From Hyphochytrium catenoides (Eukaryota > Sar > Hyphochytriomycetes > Hyphochytriales > Hyphochytriaceae), in NCBI GenBank assembly GCA_900088475.1, contig FLMG01000782.1, forward strand, positions 1-34,650: DNA of 34,650 nt. Direction: 5' to 3'. The translations under genes and the position numbers were made by a program. Under the pieces are notes generated by a model. The model was not told where the DNA came from, ran no database searches, and saw only the letters and a list, made by a program, of their open reading frames with translations. Of the stretch, positions 2,394 to 34,650 are shown piece after piece; within the stretch, counting starts at the first letter, position 1; every line of letters begins with the position of its first letter.

Positions 2394-5300
2394 ATGGAGA
2401 TCGAAGCTTCTCCTTCTGCCCTGTCGCCTTCTGCTGAGGACGAGACAGTCGGCAGCTACCTTCCTATGGCTCTGTACCCTCTCCGTCACTCCGGAGGAGG
2501 AGCACCTCGCCCTCCTACGTTAACAAGAAGGCGAAGGACCTCCTCCTGCGACCCTTCGCGCACGTTCTCCCTCCGTCGGCCACGGACGTCTTCTCTCTGC
2601 GGTTCTCCCAGTGACCAGAGGAAGAGAGGAGGGTACAAACAACCGCGTATAGACAGCGAGGAGCCCGTCAAAGGTATCCTAGCTCCTCCTAGACTGCTAT
2701 GCTCACATGTTCACGTTCTTCACCTCTCCCATATCTACTTTTTATCATGGTTAGGACTAACTCCCTCTCCTCTCTCCCTGAAGTTGGCTCAGAAGCGTCG
2801 GCAGCCTCTTTTCCCCGGAAAGGCAAAGGCTGGGGAGGTCGTCTCTCCTATCGCTGGGGCCATGCTCTGTCTTCTCCAGCCAAGAGCTTGTTGAGCAAGT
2901 TCCAGAGCAGCAAAAGGAAAAACAGGGTAAGGCCCAGAGACGAACAGCTCTCCCTTGCTCTCCAATAGGCTGTCTTCTTACGAAGCTCTTGCCCTATGTC
3001 AGAACTCGTATTCCAATTTCGTGGTGCCATCGACAGTGAAGATGCCTGCAAAGCTTCTCTTGGCCCTTCAACGCGGGCTCCAGGACAAGCGAACGGCAGG
3101 AAGAGTGTGCTCTGCCTCTCCCTACGTCAGCATTCATCCTCGCAGCACAGGTAAGAAGAGAAGGAGAGCGAGAGAAACGTGGTGGTTGAGACTGTGTTGG
3201 CCGTTCGTAGTCTAACCTCTTGCTTGTCCTCCACTAATCAGAGGTGAGAGATCCCTTGACCATCTCTGTGGTTGGAGCGGAGATGGCGAACGGCTTCGGA
3301 GAAGCAACAGTAAGTTCCTTCTGCTGAAAAGATCTTCTTCCTCTTCTGGTCTCGCCCTCTCTCTCCATGCTCTTCATGATCCCTCTTCCGTGTCTCCTTT
3401 TACTCTATTTTTTCTTTGCTCTGTGTCTCTCATCCGTTCTTCTGCTCTCTTTCCTCGTTCATACAACTAGATTATTCTGTGTCTCCCTCTCCCATGAGGC
3501 CTAACGTTCAGCTTCGTGGCAGCTCTATGTAGTGAAGGTAGTGGACATTAGGACGGGGACTCGATGGACTGTGAAGAGGAAGTTCAAGGATTTTTATCGC
3601 CTGCGAAGAGAGGTAGAAATTAGCGTTTCTCTACCAAGTGTCTCTCTGTCTTCTGTCTCTTTTTTGTCTCTTTATCTTTGTCTCAATTTTCTCAGTGGTC
3701 CTCAACGTCACATTGTCTCTTTCCCCTCTGACATGACACGTCTGACTCTCTCTTGTTCTCGCTCTGCAGCTGAAAGTCTTGTACAAGCGCTCAGGCGGGA
3801 GCCGCAGCGATCCCAATGGACAGTTCCGGCTGCTTCTCTCTCTTCCCTTTCCGCATCGCTTCTCCTCTCCTTCCTCTCTCTCGTCTCTTTCTTCTCAACG
3901 GGCAGTGAGACAGCGGATCCGCCAGTTGAACCTCTTCTTGAAGTACCTGGCGTGCTGGGACCTAGTGCATCAGAACTATGTCAATGCAAGGAAGATGATG
4001 GAGAGGATGATAGCGTAAGAGATACTTCTACTTCATGGACGTAACCTCTCTCCCGCGCTCTCTTTCTCTTTCTCTCTGTCTCTCCTTGCTGCCTCTCTCT
4101 CTCTGTCTCTCTCTTCTCTCTTCTCTTTGCTCCTTTTCTTAACTGTTCCGTGTCCGTAGGCCTTCAGAGAAGTTCCTCGTCAAGCTGAGGGCTACAGAGG
4201 AAGCCAACGTAGGAACGAAGCGATATGAAGAGAGTCCTGAGAGAGACCTGGAGCTCTGGCTCTTCCGAATTCTCAACAATCCTTTCTCTAGAGAAGGAAG
4301 AGCCTGTATCGCCTTCTCTACCGCCTTTCTGCAGCATTGCGCCAGCATTGGGGAGCTTGGGGAAGAGATAGAAGAAGGAGAAGACGAGGAAGATGACGAC
4401 GGTGAAGGGGATCTCTCTTCCATGGTTGCTAGTAGTATATCTTCCTCCTGCTCTACAATGATGATGACAGAAGGAAGGATGTCCTCTTCCTCTTTCTCTG
4501 CATCATTCTACAGCTACTCGAAGACCATCATAGCTGCAGGAGATGAAGAAGGAAAGAGAGAGAGAGTTATGGAGCTCTTCTCTCAGCTGAGAAGGGAGGA
4601 CCTTCCCCTGGAAGTCAGGAAGGTGATGACTCAAGTAACGGAGCACATTCTCTCAGCCTTAGAGAAGCCTTTCTACACAGAGCAACATGCTCTCGGAGAG
4701 GGAGAGCAAAGTCCTCCCTCTCTCTCTCCCCTTCAATGGGAAGCTGAGAAGAGAAAGAAAGGAACACAGAGCAATCAGTGCTATGAGCTATTGAGAGACT
4801 CCGCCATGGTAGCAGTGGAAGAGGCTCTCTTCTTCCCCCTCCAACCGGTACTGCTCTCTCTTCTTCGCTCTTCTTTCTGTCCCAAGGAGGCCGAAGAGCT
4901 GCGTCACTCTATGGAATGCTTAAGAAGAGCGGACCAGGACTACTTTGGCATCTCTAGGCTCTATCAGTCTCGAGAACAGAGGGGAGAGGAGTGGGCAGAT
5001 GCCGTCCGCCTGCTGAAATGCATGGACCAGGAAGCACTGCCGTCCCAGAAGCTTAAGTATCTCCTTCTCTCTGCTCAAGCAATCTTTAGAGAGGTCCGCC
5101 TCTCTCAGTGGCGGCAAAAGAGAAAGGAAGAAGCAGAGAGAAAGGCGGCAGAAAAGAAAGAAGCGGAAGAGAGTGGGGACGAAGCAATGAGACAGACTAG
5201 CAAACCAGACTCGCAGAATGGTGGTGATTCTTCCCCAACTGAAGCTTTCCCTCCTCTCACCTCCTCCTATGCGGACCTCTCCGCGGACGACTTCCTTCCC

Positions 5301-5666
5301 ATCCACATCTTCGTGGTCTCTCGAGCTAATCTTAGGGATCCTCTGGGAACTAAAGCAATGCTCAACCTGATGATCCACCCAGAGAAAGAGAGGGGAGAAA
5401 TTGGCTATTTTCTCACTCTCTTCGCGGTTGCTCTTCAGTATATTACCGAGCATAAGCGAGAGATTGAGGAGAGATGGGGAGAGGAGGAGAAGAGTGCAAG
5501 AAGGAGGACTCTTCTCGCCATGAGTGGTATTGGCACTCTTCCTGGAGGAGATGACTGTATCTTGGGAGGCGGAAGAATAGCAGAGGAAGGAGCAAACTAT
5601 TCTTTCCTCACGTCTCTTGCTGCGGACGCGGACAGCTTCTGCAAAGGGACAATCTTCTTCCTCTAG
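2394..5666 (+). CDS. PX domain-VPS9 domain protein (putative Rab5-family guanine nucleotide exchange factor)
   Basis: Exons 2394-2673, 2784-2926, 3003-3150, 3242-3309, 3523-3612, 3770-4014 and 4160-5666 join in phase to give 826 aa. The basic, Ser-rich N-terminus (about 1-190) has no recognised domain. A PX (phosphoinositide-binding) domain spans about 191-320, with the RKFKDFYRLRRE core and the helix around FLKYLACWD. An acidic linker follows. A VPS9 helical bundle and core lie at about 540-755, with SADDFLPIHIFVV and GEIGYFLTLFAVALQYI, the family's signature helices. VPS9 domains activate Rab5-type GTPases; PX would recruit the protein to PI3P endosomal membranes (family knowledge). The start is the first ATG of the open frame after CT-rich DNA. 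The first intron has an unusual donor, GTATCCT, which resembles a U12-type site. The N-terminal exon limits are the least certain part. Confidence 0.88.
4040..4135. repeat. CT-rich low-complexity intron sequence
   Basis: Intron 6 of the PX-VPS9 gene (4015-4159) is mostly CT-rich. It ends with CTTAAC about 17 nt before the acceptor AG, a plausible branch site. Confidence 0.8.
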
Positions 5667-10121: not shown

Positions 10122-13789
<3,668 letters not shown>

Positions 13790-19391: not shown

Positions 19392-22300
19392 ATGGAGGAG
19401 ATTGGGAGTAAGGATGAGGACTTTGAAGACCTGCAGAGCTTCGTGCAGTCTTCTCTTCTCTTTGCGGAGCAGATGGAGCAGAAGGTAAGATTTAAGGCGC
19501 AGGGATGTCATGCAGAAGGAAGGAACAGAACAAAAATATTGGTAGAAAGAGGTAATGGACCCCACATAATGTGAGAGAGAGATTCTGAGAAAAGAACGCA
19601 CGAGAAAGTGGAGAAGTATGGGAAGAGAGAGAGAGATAGGCGTGGCATGCTAGAGTAGGACCAACGGGGACATAGGAAGGGGATTGATGCGGGCATAGCG
19701 TTGATCGGGCAGGATGGCCTTGTAGCCAAGAAGGCTATTCATTCTTCCAATTACAGTCGTTGTTCCTTTTCTTCTCTCTCACTCCTCTACTCTTCGCTCC
19801 TTTCGCTGCATATCTCTCTCTTTTCTCATCTCTTCCCCATCTCTTTCTCTTTCTCTCTCCCATTGTAGATGTCGTCCCTCCTGTCTGCCTTCCGCTGGAG
19901 CAGGCAAACGGTAGAGCAGGCAGCGGGTCAAGCAGAGCTGCTCTCCTGCCCTTATGATCCTAGCCATCTGGTCCCCGCTGCCTCTCTCGCGCAACACAAG
20001 GTGGTCTCCCTCATCTCTATAGCCCAATATGTTCTGGAGTGCTCCTTCCTGAAAGCTCACTATCGTGCTCTACCGCTCTTCAACTCTTTTCTATCATCGT
20101 TTTTTTCCTTTTGCCACGGTTCCACGATGTGAGACTCTACTATCGGGTGTAGGCATTTGAATGTCTCTGTACGTAAGGGAGTGGCTCATCTCTTCCTTAC
20201 TAGTTCTTCTCTGGGGTGGTCGAGGCCGTCACAGTATCTCACTCTTTATTTTCTCAAACTTCTCGGACGGTGCAGCGGCTGTGCCACGGGGTCAGGCATG
20301 AGAGCTTTGAGAGCCACAAGGTACCTACAGGCCACGGTCTCTGTCTTCTCTCTTGCTACATATGATAGATTAGGAAGTTTGTTACCTATTGTTACTCTTT
20401 TCCTTTCAATCTTTCTCTCCTTTAGTCTTTGTCCCCCTCCTTTAACCTTTCTTTGCTCCCTTATTTTGTCCTCTATCCCTCCGATATTTGTCTCCATGAT
20501 CGGTATCCTCGTTTCCTCTGTCACCGCGTCGCGCGCTGTCCTCTCGGCTGTCTTCTTACCTTTCTTTCGCCACGCTGTCCTCCCGAACCCACACTGCAAT
20601 ACCGTTCGTCCGATCCATCAGCTATTTCCTGTCATATTTTTTCTATCTGAATGGTCGATGGCGCTCACCTGCTCCACTCATGCTTGGCACCTCATTCTGC
20701 AGTTTTTTTATAGCAAAGCTCCTGCGGTAATCACTATGAACCCCCAGGTATGTACCTCTGTAACTCTCAACCTCTGTGTGTTGCCCAGTATCCTTTAGCA
20801 TCTCAGACTGCGGCCTCTCATCCCTGTCTCTCTAAGACACAACCACTATCTTTTGCTGGGACTAACTCTTCTGTTACAGACCGTTCCCGAAGCGGCACAA
20901 AGGGAAGGTGCAAACGCAAGAGATGGAAAACAAAAGCCTGAGTCGGTGAATGAATCTCCTCTATTAGAGAGGGACGATGAAGTTCTAATTGAAGATGAAG
21001 AAGAAGGTGCGCCGATTGCATTCTGAACAGTCCACAGCGCCGTCGTCATCATATTACCTCTTGCAGGTGCCTTGTGTGTACTCTGCTTCTTGGAGTCCCT
21101 CTCTTTTTTTTATGCTCTTGACTCCTTCTCTCTGTTGCACCGGCCCGACCCCTCCCTACTGAGCCTTCGTGACTCTATAAACTCTACCGATGCAGATGTG
21201 CCGCTATCATTGATCGATAGGGGTACCCCTCCGTTGTCAACATTCCCGGTAGAGGATGGAGTTTCTCCCTTTTTAGGGCCTTTCCTTTGCGTCTCCCTCT
21301 CGAGGCTACAGAAAGAGATGGGATCATGGCGGTGGGTCATTTGCACCTTCCTTAGGATCCTGCTCTTTTTAACCATTCGTCTGCACCGAGTATCACTCCA
21401 ACCTATTTGACTTCCCACACTTGATTCAACTGTTAATCCAATGGCTTCTTTTGTGTGGCGTTCAGTATGGACTCCCTACCTCGCGTTTTTCTATTGCTGA
21501 TAACTCGCAGCCTCTCCTGGTTGGGTTTGATATAAGCTTGCGGCCTCTTCTGGTTGCCCCTGATATCAGCACAGGCTTCAACCTAACACCTAAGAAACGC
21601 AAGAGTTCTGCCACTCTCACTCTGCTCCGCCTCTCCGTTGAGTTGATTGAATCTTGATTGAGTTATCTCGCCAGCTAATGTGGAACGCACAGACTCATAC
21701 CACAAGCTTTTGAAAGACTGGAGATTGAGATCTTGGATCAAAAGAAAGTGATGGGGTGGCTCATCTCTGAGATGGACAGGTACCAGAGCAAAGGACAACA
21801 GACTTTAAGAATAGAGTTAGCGACAACAGATACTTTATACCAGTTTCCCTGCCGAACAGTCTGCCGCCTTGTAACCTCGCTCTCACTTTCTACTTCTGCG
21901 GTTCATCGCTCGCCGCGCCACTGGCTCTCTTTCCTCACTTTGCTTGCGTCAGGACGCTTCCTCCAGAGCAATTTGACATGGACTTGGTGGAGTATGTCCA
22001 AGGGTTACTCTCTCATCCATTGATGAACACTCCGGACCCCCTCGCAGCGGAGCTCAAAGAGTTCTTAGGCACCATCACAAGGGTATATCCCAGTCAGATA
22101 ATGTTGTTCTTGCCTTCTTGAACACCTTTGAAAAAACCGTTCTCTGCCACACTTGTCTCGACACTCTCGTCCATAGTGGGCCTTTTCTGTTCTTTATCTA
22201 GAGTATGTACCGCTTTATCGACGAAGTTGACTCTGGACACTTTATGTACCTTCTCTTCCTTCTTCTTCCGACTCCGCGACCTCACGCTCTCTCGTCACCC

Positions 22301-24592
22301 TCTCTGTCTCCCCTGCCACCACTTACTCTCTGCTCCATTCGTCCTTTCCTCTTGCCTGCGTCTGCCGTGCGTGCTGCACGGCCTTTCCTTCCTTCTGTCC
22401 TACCGGATTTTGCAGCCTTTCGTCTTTCGCCTCTGGAAGTACCTCATCATGGCTGTTGGTCTCAGATATCAACACTTGGGAAGGGTAAGCTATAGTACCA
22501 CGTCTTCGCATTTTTACTGTTATTGTACTTAGGATCCTTGGGCGCTCTCCACTCCTTCTCGACGATTGTTGTTGCTTAGCTCATTATATTGCCTGTCTTT
22601 CTGCGGCGGAAGGATAGGTTCTCATGTTTCTTCATGGATAGATCCCTCAATCAGAAAATGGAAGAGGAGAAGACAGAGCAAAGGTTGAGAGAAGCGGGAC
22701 AATGAATGCAGACTCTGAGACGACTACTTCCCAAAGGGAGATGCCAACTCCACTCGATCGGTTAGATGAAGAGCTCATCAGGCCATCTGCTAAGCCAGTA
22801 GAAGGAGACAAAGAAAGTGAGAAACCGATGGAGCAGACCACCACCTTTGTGGTGGACTATAAGAGAAGACGGCCACGTTATAGGGGCAAGAATACTCATC
22901 TCACGAAAAGAACCCCAGTCCAGGTTAGTACATTAGAAAGAAGAAACTTCTGATTAAGGACAGATAAAAGAATGGGAGGGGCTCACTAAGAGGTAGACAA
23001 GTGACCATCAACCGCAGCAAATGACTAGTGTGCGGCAGTAGTTGGTTTCTAGCGCTGGTAGAAGCGCGTTCAGCTGACATCCCTTTTAGGTTCTACGGGA
23101 CTTGATTCACGCCAGCATGGAAGAGCTTAGAGGAGAGTTCGAGGTTATCGATGGTGAGACTGAAGGGGAGAGTGACGATGAAGAACAAAAAGAAAGAGAA
23201 GTGGCCAAAGACAAGCGGTGGGTCCTCCCTTTCTCCTTGAATCTTACATTTCGACTCTTTCTCTCTGGTTTTTCATCTAACAGTGCAAGACCTTCTTAAA
23301 TAGTCTAGGTCAGTTCACGTCTTTGCATGACATTCTAGTCGTTAACTCAGCTTCCTGTGGGCTCCCACCTCTTCTCTTTCTCCCAATCACCGCGATAGCT
23401 CTCTAAGTGGTTGTATGTGGTTCCGGTCAGGTTTCATGAGCTGCTGACACGACTAAACGACCCTTTACTGGTGAGTCTGATTAACTTTGACAACTTTGAC
23501 AAAGCACATAATCGAAGGAAGTGAATAATCGTGTGGTATAGGTTCGAGATCTTGAGAGATACCTAGAGGCGCCTTCATTCTCAATGCTGGACAGAGGAAG
23601 AGACTTAAGAAGAGTGGCCGAGGAGCTCTTGAGACTCCAAAGAGGAGAAAAGGTACCTATTTACTTCGGTTGCCCCGTCACGGGTTTCACCTTGGGCTTC
23701 CCTATACCCAGCGCCGCCCTTCACAACCCTTTATTTCATTCTCCATTTTTCTTCCCTTTCAGCATCTTCGATTCAGTCGAACAGTAAGACTAACAAGTGA
23801 ACGCATCTCCCCTTATCGACAGCCCGACACAAAAGTTTCCGAGAAGAAGCCTAGATCGGATGCCGAAAAGGCCCGCGACGAGTTCGACAGAAGAAGAGTT
23901 GCAGCTGATGCGTCAAGGAGAGATTGGGAGAGGTAACAAAAGCATCTCTTCTTGATGCTCCGACAAAGTTCGGTTCCTAAACTCCAGTATGACGTAGGTC
24001 TTCCGAGAGAAGATTGCGGGATAAGGAAGGGGACACGGAGAGAAACCGATGGGGAAGGAGCCACTTCAAGACTGACGTCCAGCAGCAAGAGCATCCTGCT
24101 ACTGATAAAGGATTGACGGCAACGAGGAGAAAAGACGATTACCATGAACTTCCGAGCAGCATGGCCCTGGACGCCGAGGAAACCACAAGAAGACAGAGGA
24201 GCCCGAGCCACGGTCGCTCTAGGAAAGAGGCAATAAGAAAGCGAAATAGCCGAGACCGATCGTTTGAGAGAGAAAAGAAGAGATTTAGAAGCCGACGCAG
24301 CTCTGAGAGACCACGAAGCAGATGCAGAGATGAGCCATCAAGTCGCAATAAGGAGAGGGGTGACTCGAGGCAGAATGTGGAGGAGACCGCTGTACAGGCC
24401 AATAGAAGTCAGGAGAGCAGCAGGAGCTACCATCACCCGAATGCCAGTAAACACGAAAGAGACAGAAGCAGGGGCAAGGATAGGAGAGAGGACCGAAGAA
24501 ATGACAGAGAAAGCGGGCGGGGGCGCAGTCGAAGTCGAAGCTCTCGAGAAGAACGGTCACGACGAAGCTACAGCCCACGGAGGAGGGTGTGA
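19392..24592 (+). CDS. SNRNP48: U11/U12 snRNP 48 kDa protein (minor spliceosome), with a long RS-rich C-terminus
   Basis: Recognises U12-type 5' splice sites as part of the U11 snRNP. Exons 19392-19484, 19869-20000, 20276-20320, 20703-20747, 20880-21006, 21707-21779, 21953-22082, 22642-22923, 23090-23217, 23431-23470, 23542-23652, 23763-23932 and 23998-24592 join in phase (656 aa). The CHHC zinc finger is complete: C58-x5-H64-x9-H74-x3-C78, the same spacing as human U11-48K; C78 lies in the next exon. FFYSKAPAVITMNPQ follows, matching the human FFYENVKIPSITLNK. The conserved core VVDYKRRRPRYRGKNTHLTK...VLRDLIHASMEEL (residues about 279-325) matches human VRDYKRRRQSYRAKNVHITK. Residues about 460-656 are Arg/Ser/Glu-rich, ending in an RS domain. 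The human protein is about 339 aa, so this one is nearly twice as long. The exon starting at 21707 and its flanking introns are the weakest part. A U12-type 5' splice-site sequence lies in the intron 20748-20879. Confidence 0.9.
20788..20796 (+). promoter_or_regulatory. Perfect U12-type 5' splice-site sequence inside a SNRNP48 intron (candidate USSE)
   Basis: GTATCCTTT lies 41 nt into the intron 20748-20879, directly overlapping a possible 3' splice site (TTGCCCAG, ending at 20788). A degenerate second copy, CTATCTTTT, lies at 20846-20854. In animals and plants the same gene carries tandem U12-type 5' splice-site sequences (USSE) that bind U11 and drive an unproductive isoform. Here only one copy is perfect, so the call is inference. 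Confidence 0.5.
23784..23822 (+). other. Possible 39-nt in-frame mini-intron (exitron-like) in SNRNP48
   Basis: Within the exon 23763-23932, the segment begins GTAAGACTAAC, ends CGACAG, and is 39 nt (13 codons), so it can be retained or removed without a frame change. Retention is assumed in the model above. Confidence 0.3.
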
Positions 24593-32880: not shown

Positions 32881-33936
32881 TTAGACTATTTGTTGCAGCT
32901 CTGCATGGCCGCTTTCTGCCCTCTCACTTTGAGTTGCCTGTAAAAGGGCCGCCTGGGCAGCACCTGCTCTTGGTCTCTCTCGCGCCGGTGGGGCCATGTG
33001 TGACCTAGGACTAGGTCTTTTCACCTTCGTAATAGGTCTCGAGGGTCCTGCCTCACTACTTCCCCTAACTCCCTCCATATGATGCTTAGGTAATGAGGGA
33101 AGACGATGAACACCAGCTCTGCTTAGCACCAAACTGCCGCTGGTATCACCTTGCTGACCAGCTGACAATAAAGGGTCCCTCTCCCTCTCCTGACAGCTGT
33201 GCACTAGACTATCCAGACTATGAACTATAAAAGCACCGAGATGCTCTTGTCTACTGGCGATGGCCTGCAGAGCTTGAGCTCTGTCGCTTATGAGCTCTGA
33301 GACAGAGCGTTCATCATCCATCCTCTGGACCTTTCCCATACTGGCAGTTCGAGATGCTACCTTAACGCTCTCTCCGCCCGCAGCCCTTCGGGAGGAAGAG
33401 GAGAGTCCAAACCTATTCCTAAAGTTATAATACCAGCCATCAGAGGCCGAGAACTCCTGGTCCGTCACTCCCTGAGCCTCTGCAAATGCCTTTGCTTTGC
33501 TCTTGATCATTTGAGGAGTAACTGCCTTGCCCGTCTGCTTCATGTCGCAAATCCATCGATAGAGTGCCTCTTCTAAGTGAGGATGTTTCGCTGGTCTCAT
33601 GGCCTTTTGAGTCTTTTTCTGCTTCTCTGAGGCGGTGCTCCAGAGTCGGCGGATGTCATGGGCCTTAGACTTTATCTTCCTTACTGCTCCCTCCGTGATG
33701 CTGAACTGCTTCCCAATCTGTCTATTGGACAAAGACGTCAGCTCCAGGATCTTCATCTTCTGCTCTAACGTGGGGCGAACTCGCTTTTTCGCAGGTCTTG
33801 ATGAAGCCGAAGGCTCGGATGTGGCACTCTGCGCACCTTGTTCTGCTCGCCGTTTAATGGCCCCAGAAGAGGTCTCCATCCTGCGAGGAGAACGGGTATC
33901 CGGAGATACGATGTGGTCAAGAAGTGTCTTCACCAT
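32881..33936 (-). CDS. CENP-B/pogo-like DNA-binding protein without a DDE catalytic domain
   Basis: A single open frame with no intron, in contrast to most of its neighbours: 351 aa from the first in-frame ATG (an alternative ATG is at 33879). A basic Pro/Ser N-terminus is followed by a psq-type helix-turn-helix (about 50-95: RPTLEQKMKILELTSLSNRQ, IGKQFSITEGAVRKIKSK) and a second CENPB/Tc5-transposase-type helix-turn-helix (about 113-175: HPHLEEALYRWICDMKQTG, then ASDGWYYNFRNRFGL). The rest is Ser/Arg/Pro-rich and probably disordered, with a helical patch (about 205-255). The DDE integrase domain of Tigger/pogo elements is absent. It may be a domesticated transposase, a CENP-B-like protein, or a decayed element. 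No terminal inverted repeats were noticed nearby. Confidence 0.8.
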   Translation of the reverse strand: MVKTLLDHIVSPDTRSPRRMETSSGAIKRRAEQGAQSATSEPSASSRPAKKRVRPTLEQKMKILELTSLSNRQIGKQFSITEGAVRKIKSKAHDIRRLWSTASEKQKKTQKAMRPAKHPHLEEALYRWICDMKQTGKAVTPQMIKSKAKAFAEAQGVTDQEFSASDGWYYNFRNRFGLSSSSRRAAGGESVKVASRTASMGKVQRMDDERSVSELISDRAQALQAIASRQEHLGAFIVHSLDSLVHSCQERERDPLLSAGQQGDTSGSLVLSRAGVHRLPSLPKHHMEGVRGSSEAGPSRPITKVKRPSPRSHMAPPARERPRAGAAQAALLQATQSERAESGHAELQQIV

Positions 33937-34650
33937 CCTCCCAAGGTCGTAATGTGCTGTCTTCAAGCAAAAGACAGACAAAGCTCCAGGGCATGCTCCA
34001 CGATCGATGAGGCTCGCTGGCCATCTGCCACAAGTGAGTGAGATATTCCATTTCTCTCACCATAGTTCTCAATGTGCCAGGTGATATCCATGAGCTTGAG
34101 GAGAGACAGGGAAGCCCTCCCACTTCATGTTGTTGCACACCTTTCTTTTTTGCAGCAACCACTCAGTAGGCGGAAGCAAGGATGGAGAGAGCAAAGCTCA
34201 CATTTGCCAGAGACTCATCTGCGCCCGCGGCCCCATCTGGCATACCCTTTCTCTAGGTCTTGTTGTCTCCCCTTCTGTTGATTCTCCTCCTTGGGCGGAA
34301 CCTCTCCGCTGGCTTAAAAAGAGTAATGAAGCTCGAGAAACTGCAGCAGCGTTCAGATCTTTAGCTCGAAGTCACGGAAGAGGAGCAGCAGCGGAAGGTT
34401 GGTGCGAAGGGTGCATACGATGGCACTTTGGACCAATCCAACAGCAAAGAGTAGATTGGAGATGGAACAGCAAGGAGGAATAGAATAGTAAGGAGGAAAC
34501 AGGTGGAGACCGCGAAGAAAGAAGAGCTGAGAGCCGTACAGAAGCCTCAAAAAGTGTATGTACCTTTTCCTCGCCACACCCCTGTCGCATCTCGTCTCGG
34601 TCTACCTCTCCAACCCTCTCCTCTCTCTTTCTCTCTCTCTCTCTCTCTCT
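33937..34650. other. Window edge, no firm gene
   Basis: The 5' region of the CENP-B-like gene. Between about 34320 and 34560 the plus strand has stretches that look coding (for example KKEELRAVQKPQKVYVPFP near 34515-34570), but frames are broken by stops and no exon chain could be built. A gene starting here and continuing to the right is possible. Confidence 0.3.
34612..34650. repeat. (CT)n microsatellite at the window end
   Basis: CT dinucleotides run to the last base. By the pattern seen at other genes here, this orientation would fit the 5' region of a plus-strand gene to the right. Confidence 0.9.

Follow-up and report, generated by a model that had tools for sequence, protein, structure and literature searches.

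Does a perfect U12-type 5' splice-site sequence inside an intron of the gene for U11-48K (SNRNP48) take part in regulating that gene? The sequence in question, GTATCCTTT, can be read directly on the forward strand at 20788-20796 of the window (the whole stretch of DNA analysed, 34,650 nucleotides) and lies in intron 4 of the gene; its presence there, as given in a preliminary description of the locus, is confirmed. That description had read it as a USSE in a 'one-and-a-half-site' form. As far as the accessible parts of the published reports describe it, the USSE consists of tandem U12-type donors, themselves unused for splicing, which turn on a major 3' splice site lying upstream and so give poison-exon or long-3'UTR isoforms, and the genes with a known USSE are SNRNP48 and RNPC3 (PMC5473595, PMC3584512, PMC6865273, PMC8329584). 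We find the interpretation partly supported. With little better than even confidence, we regard the lone site at 20788 as most likely devoid of a regulatory role, a chance match in an ordinary U11-48K gene.

Contig C1014, which makes up the window, comes from a genome of 42.5 Mb in 1105 contigs; U11 and U12 genes together with spliceosomal introns mark this genome as evidently eukaryotic. The gene running from 19392 onward matches the Pfam family zf-U11-48K (E 4.3e-7). Its N-terminal part aligns with the human U11-48K chain 8r7n_F (E 6.1e-5), its C-terminal DYKRRR part also matches human U11-48K (E 8.9e-11), and the C-H-H-C spacing of its zinc finger is the same as in the human protein in the 8r7n_F alignment. 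By these similarities the host gene is a genuine U11-48K gene, which bears out the identity proposed for it beforehand. In the genome it gives one full match, to itself, and no protein relative was found at E 0.001 among 5448 candidates. A stretch of intron 1 (approximately 19765-19859) has five short matches in the genome, with 76-80% identity. Three other coding stretches can be recognised in the window by Pfam. An open frame at 4143-5663 has a VPS9 domain, 13334-13789 on the minus strand is likely to be an exon for a histone-binding protein resembling RBBP4/CAF1 subunit C, and an open frame of 391 aa (32881-34056, minus strand) bears the DNA-binding domain of a Tc5-type transposase.

The mapped exons 1 to 5, all on the forward strand, translate as MEEIGSK...CPYDPSHLVPAASLAQHKRLC...FFYSKAPAVITMNPQ/TVPEAAQ. 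Exon 1 (19392-19484) was placed by its translation from the ATG start and by the donor AAG/GTAAGA. Exon 2 (19869-20000) encodes the first part of the CHHC zinc finger (CPYDPSHLVPAASLAQHK), to which the Pfam match and the alignments with PDB 8r7n_F and 2vy4_A apply, and exon 3 (20276-20320, RLC...) supplies the finger's last Cys, as judged from translation and the human alignment. Exon 4 (20703-20747, FFYSKAPAVITMNPQ), directly upstream of the intron that holds the element, is a conserved coding exon aligning with FFY...ITLN of human U11-48K. Exon 5 (20880-21006) was read from its translation and has a putative 3' end. Two later exons, at 22642-22923 (VVDYKRRRPRYRGKNTHLTKRTPVQ) and 23090-23217 (VLRDLIHASMEEL...), both belong to the C-terminal human match, and their ends were set by eye.

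Intron 4 itself (20748-20879) reads as an ordinary U2-type intron, CAG/GTATGT ... ACTAAC ... TTACAG, with the unexceptional ends, at 20748 and 20879, that had been noted for it. The 9-mer at 20788-20796 is the sole match to RTATCCTTT on either strand of the window, in which five sites on the two strands score at least 10 with our U12-donor matrix; this matrix and the branch-point matrix used below are home-made, from consensus sequences. Second best between 19392 and 24500 is a weak donor-like sequence in intron 3, GTATCCTCG (20503-20511, forward strand), which scores 10.1 of 16.0. It and the 20788 site flank the 45-nt exon 4, and skipping of exon 4 keeps the frame. Two further elements had been proposed around the 9-mer. 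A possible 3' splice site, CCCAG, is indeed present at 20784-20788 on the forward strand, but it does not abut the 9-mer as claimed: its last G is also the first base of GTATCCTTT. The degenerate second copy, CTATCTTTT, likewise exists at 20846-20854 on the same strand and agrees with the 9-mer at seven of nine positions, but it scores 4.3 of 16.0, and when the 83 nt downstream were shuffled, 7/9 was reached in 7.4% of cases (P 0.074). This is chance level, and the 'one-and-a-half-site' form was thus overstated.

The minor spliceosome implied by the preliminary description is present in this genome, to judge from its snRNA genes and from two likely minor introns that begin with GTATCCTTT. There is one match to U11 (47.5 bits, cut-off 39) and one to U12 (55.9 bits, cut-off 53), while the Rfam model for U6atac had no match in this genome, nor in any control genome, so that this negative carries no weight. 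Genome-wide searches for donor-plus-branch-point patterns returned 4 against 2 in the control and, in a second search, 4 against 3, so that, over the distances covered, strong-consensus minor introns do not clearly exceed the controls. Of the eight places where RTATCCTT(T) is followed by the branch-point consensus, two join conserved coding exons in frame. One is a likely minor intron (GTATCCTTT, TTCCTTGAC, 13 nt to AG) at C8:4676 on the minus strand, in a gene matching PDB U2A' (E 1.6e-28); U2A' is a component of the major spliceosome. The other (GTATCCTTT, TTCCTTAAC) lies at C22:35167, minus strand, in a Der1-like gene (Pfam DER1 2.5e-12; Derlin-1 E 8.9e-4). Judging from these two introns, GTATCCTTT probably functions as a minor donor in this organism. 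At C70:28701 a possible minor intron begins 3 nt beyond the stop codon of an RS-rich open frame, which may place it in a 3' UTR.

Could U11 recognise the site in intron 4? The 5' end of this organism's U11 begins AUAAAGGGC, and the 20788 site is complementary to it: pairing is predicted from +4 to +10, with a duplex energy of -6.3 kcal/mol; the consensus donor that was tried gave -6.6, and the site in RNPC3 gave -4.7. The pairing is lengthened by the A at +10, after GTATCCTTT, which faces U2 of this organism's U11. On this complementarity the site could be bound by the host's U11 snRNP. However, the first nine bases of U11 pair better elsewhere in the U11-48K gene (up to -9.4), and a stretch containing GCCCA, a short way upstream within intron 4, reaches -7.4 with the same nine bases, so that energy alone fails to single out the 20788 site.

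Retention of intron 4 would give 121 aa and then an in-frame TAG (20795-20797, forward strand) that overlaps the last bases of the element. Use of 20788 as a donor with the acceptor at 20879 adds 40 nt, shifts the frame, as had been foreseen, and runs into a stop after 138 aa; use of 20788 as an acceptor leads to a stop after 155 aa. All three outcomes are premature stops, so any effect of the site would be unproductive, as feedback requires.

Two mechanisms with precedents have to be considered at this point. The canonical USSE, in which paired donors bound by U11 would switch on a major 3' splice site upstream of them and thereby create a poison exon, as in animal SNRNP48, has the right gene, the right motif, a position in a non-coding part of SNRNP48, a genome with both U11 and U12, and U11 pairing in the sense of complementarity alone. 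Two of its defining parts are missing. The next donor-like sequence in intron 4 is the chance-level CTATCTTTT, which leaves no tandem, and no U2-type 3' splice site stands upstream at an exon-like distance: the sole one proposed within the intron, CCCAG, shares a G with the element, so that no exon fits between them, and going further upstream, the gene model has its next acceptor at 20702, that of the conserved coding exon 4. We therefore reject the canonical USSE as an account of this locus and give it hardly any credence. Alternatively, the intron might act as a twintron or carry an alternative minor donor, the minor spliceosome sometimes joining the perfect donor at 20788 to the shared acceptor at 20879 and so making a dead mRNA, by way of the 40-nt addition and frame shift described above. 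Srsf10, in which competing major and minor donors serve as a control device according to the part of that report accessible to us (PMC7244321), would be a precedent. A U12-type intron requires a branch point as well as a donor, however, and between 20797 and 20880 no U12 branch-point-like sequence was found with our home-made matrix (best score 0.5, against 14.9 for a perfect match and a 99th percentile of 2.0 in the window). Donor use at 20788 is therefore unlikely, and the twintron reading is improbable; productive donor use we reject on branch point and frame.

Is a perfect 9-mer in this intron surprising at all? In shuffled versions of the window RTATCCTTT occurs 0.27 times on average, and at least once in 24 of 100 shuffles. 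Shuffling intron 4 alone gives P 0.00045 for GTATCCTTT. When all five introns mapped in the gene are taken together (1,362 nt), the figure is 0.0124 for GTATCCTTT and 0.053 for RTATCCTTY. A coincidence of this order in one such gene is unremarkable, and for one gene named beforehand the shuffle figures are mild evidence and no more. Across the genome GTATCCTTT is not enriched, with 166 + 141 = 307 occurrences against 181 + 198 = 379 for the reversed control, or one per approximately 277 kb of strand. In no bin of local pyrimidine content is its density raised more than 2.3-fold, an estimate drawn from 70 of the 307 matches; in the pyrimidine bin of the 20788 site the density is 0.0042 per kb, from the same 70 matches. 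With the genome and pyrimidine-bin densities, the 4 kb U11-48K gene is expected to contain about 0.014-0.022 occurrences. A tandem pattern, GTATCCTTT with TATCCTT no more than 30 nt away, turned up once in the genome and three times in the reversed control. The single case (C972:712-753, minus strand) combines two perfect U12-type donors, GTATCCTTT and ATATCCTTT, with 34 nt between their starts, close to the end of a contig; no clear gene was seen there by eye, and we set it aside.

Other genes for U11/U12 proteins offer a comparison that does not depend on the window. RNPC3 (U11/U12-65K) was located on contig C695 by its match to the PDB entry for RNA-binding protein 40 (E 5.3e-17), a name that we take to be a synonym of RNPC3. 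Towards the end of its exon 2 there is a sense GTATCCTTT (C695:11751-11759), which is the only exact copy on either strand of the 14 kb scanned; about 0.008 sense copies would be expected in this 2.1 kb gene at genome density, with the gene limits set by eye. Full RTATCCTTT is absent from the sense strand of SNRNP35 (5 kb), ZCRB1 (3.3 kb) and the SNRNP25 candidate (3.1 kb), the last a tentative locus with a weak identification (E 0.044). The perfect 9-mer is thus present in two of the five loci, exactly the two USSE genes. The control loci are negative for the full 9-mer only. TTATCCTTT, which differs from GTATCCTTT in its first base alone and keeps the U11-pairing core TATCCTTT, preceded by T, occurs twice in the tentative SNRNP25 locus (locus positions 353 and 1930) and once in the ZCRB1 locus (minus strand at 460), that is, in two of the three controls.

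The RNPC3 copy may also be a plain minor-intron donor. A branch-point-like GACCTTGAC, in the top 0.1% of the window's scores, stands 11 nt before the AG of TATAATAG (C695:11928), and RNPC3 is called a minor-intron-containing gene in the accessible part of one report (PMC6865273). The 9-mer also stands 11 nt after a GAG/GTACAG donor-like site (11740). Reading frame does not decide here: in the phase table it is preserved by several donor-acceptor pairs, among them 11751 to 11891, 11740 to 11928, and 11735 with 11893. With these caveats, the coincidence in RNPC3 counts as one independent hint.

These observations leave the choice between a chance match and a single-site decoy. If the match in the U11-48K intron is fortuitous, which we hold to be somewhat the better account, the major spliceosome would simply remove intron 4 from GTATGT (20748) to TTACAG (20879), and the 20788 site would be inert in the cell. 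The flat genome-wide count, the shuffle values for the five introns, the chance-level partner, the want of both an upstream 3' splice site able to form an exon with the element and a downstream U12 branch point, the possible donor role of the RNPC3 copy and the recurrence of the core TATCCTTT in control loci all point in this direction. On the other side, the gene could have been predicted beforehand, only SNRNP48 and RNPC3 of the five loci have the perfect 9-mer, the expected occurrences in both are low, the A at +10 lengthens the pairing with the host's own U11, and the stop codon met on retention lies inside the element. A decoy is a reading that we take seriously while holding it to be doubtful. 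Plentiful U11 snRNP, containing U11-48K, would bind 20788-20797, a site that lies 40 nt downstream from the major donor, and would disturb the major-type removal of intron 4; the retained intron would bring in the TAG, the mRNA would be lost, presumably by decay, and the level of U11-48K would fall. This would be USSE logic with one site, and with intron retention in place of the poison exon, and RNPC3 would be under the same control. The complementarity (perfect 9-mer plus A at +10 against U11 AUAAAGGG), the stop codon and the two snRNA genes are there to be read in the genome. The near-consensus duplex energy, the likely use of the 9-mer as a donor in the U2A' and Der1-like introns, its presence in RNPC3 but not in the SNRNP35, ZCRB1 and tentative SNRNP25 loci, and the premature stops in every outcome are all consistent with a decoy, and so is the missing branch point, as expected of a site that is bound but unused. 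Against it, known USSEs, as described in the accessible parts of the reports, come as tandems and switch on a 3' splice site upstream of them, neither of which is seen here (PMC5473595, PMC3584512, PMC8329584); a shuffle P of 1-5% leaves room for chance; TTATCCTTT, with its pairing core intact, recurs in ZCRB1 and the SNRNP25 candidate; the RNPC3 site may be an ordinary donor; and other stretches of the gene, one of them in intron 4, pair better with U11.

A broader form of the decoy idea, which we put forward only tentatively, is that in a compact, intron-rich eukaryote the single donors in U11-48K and RNPC3 would be U11 sensors that make their own pre-mRNAs unproductive through retention, the stop codon being built into the sensor. 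If true, this would be a minimal, one-site form of minor-spliceosome feedback, in which one U11 site can suffice. If, in addition, the host is neither an animal nor a plant, such feedback would be more ancient or more widely distributed than is known and would extend to a further lineage. Among the literature matches listed, titles and abstract openings describe no such element outside animals and plants; subscription literature is mostly beyond this coverage, which makes this weak evidence of absence. If instead the match is due to chance, the locus is a useful warning that a single perfect 9-mer found in the 'right' gene comes with a background of 1-5%.

How does the locus compare with known systems? 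Like prospero-type twintrons, it has major and minor splice signals within one intron, but neither a U12 branch point nor a separate minor acceptor was found to accompany the donor. The parallel with Srsf10 is a minor donor beside a major donor in a splicing-factor gene, where the level of the minor spliceosome could set productive output. In Srsf10, however, the minor donor lies upstream, is used and gives a productive mRNA, whereas here it lies downstream, lacks a recognisable branch point and would be unproductive in any use. The known USSE is a tandem pair, while 20788 is one site, lacking an upstream 3' splice site for it to activate and leaving no space for a poison exon. What the two have in common is the gene itself, a U12-type 5' splice site in its non-coding part, complementarity to U11, an unproductive outcome if the site acts at all, and the presence of the same 9-mer in RNPC3, the second known USSE gene.
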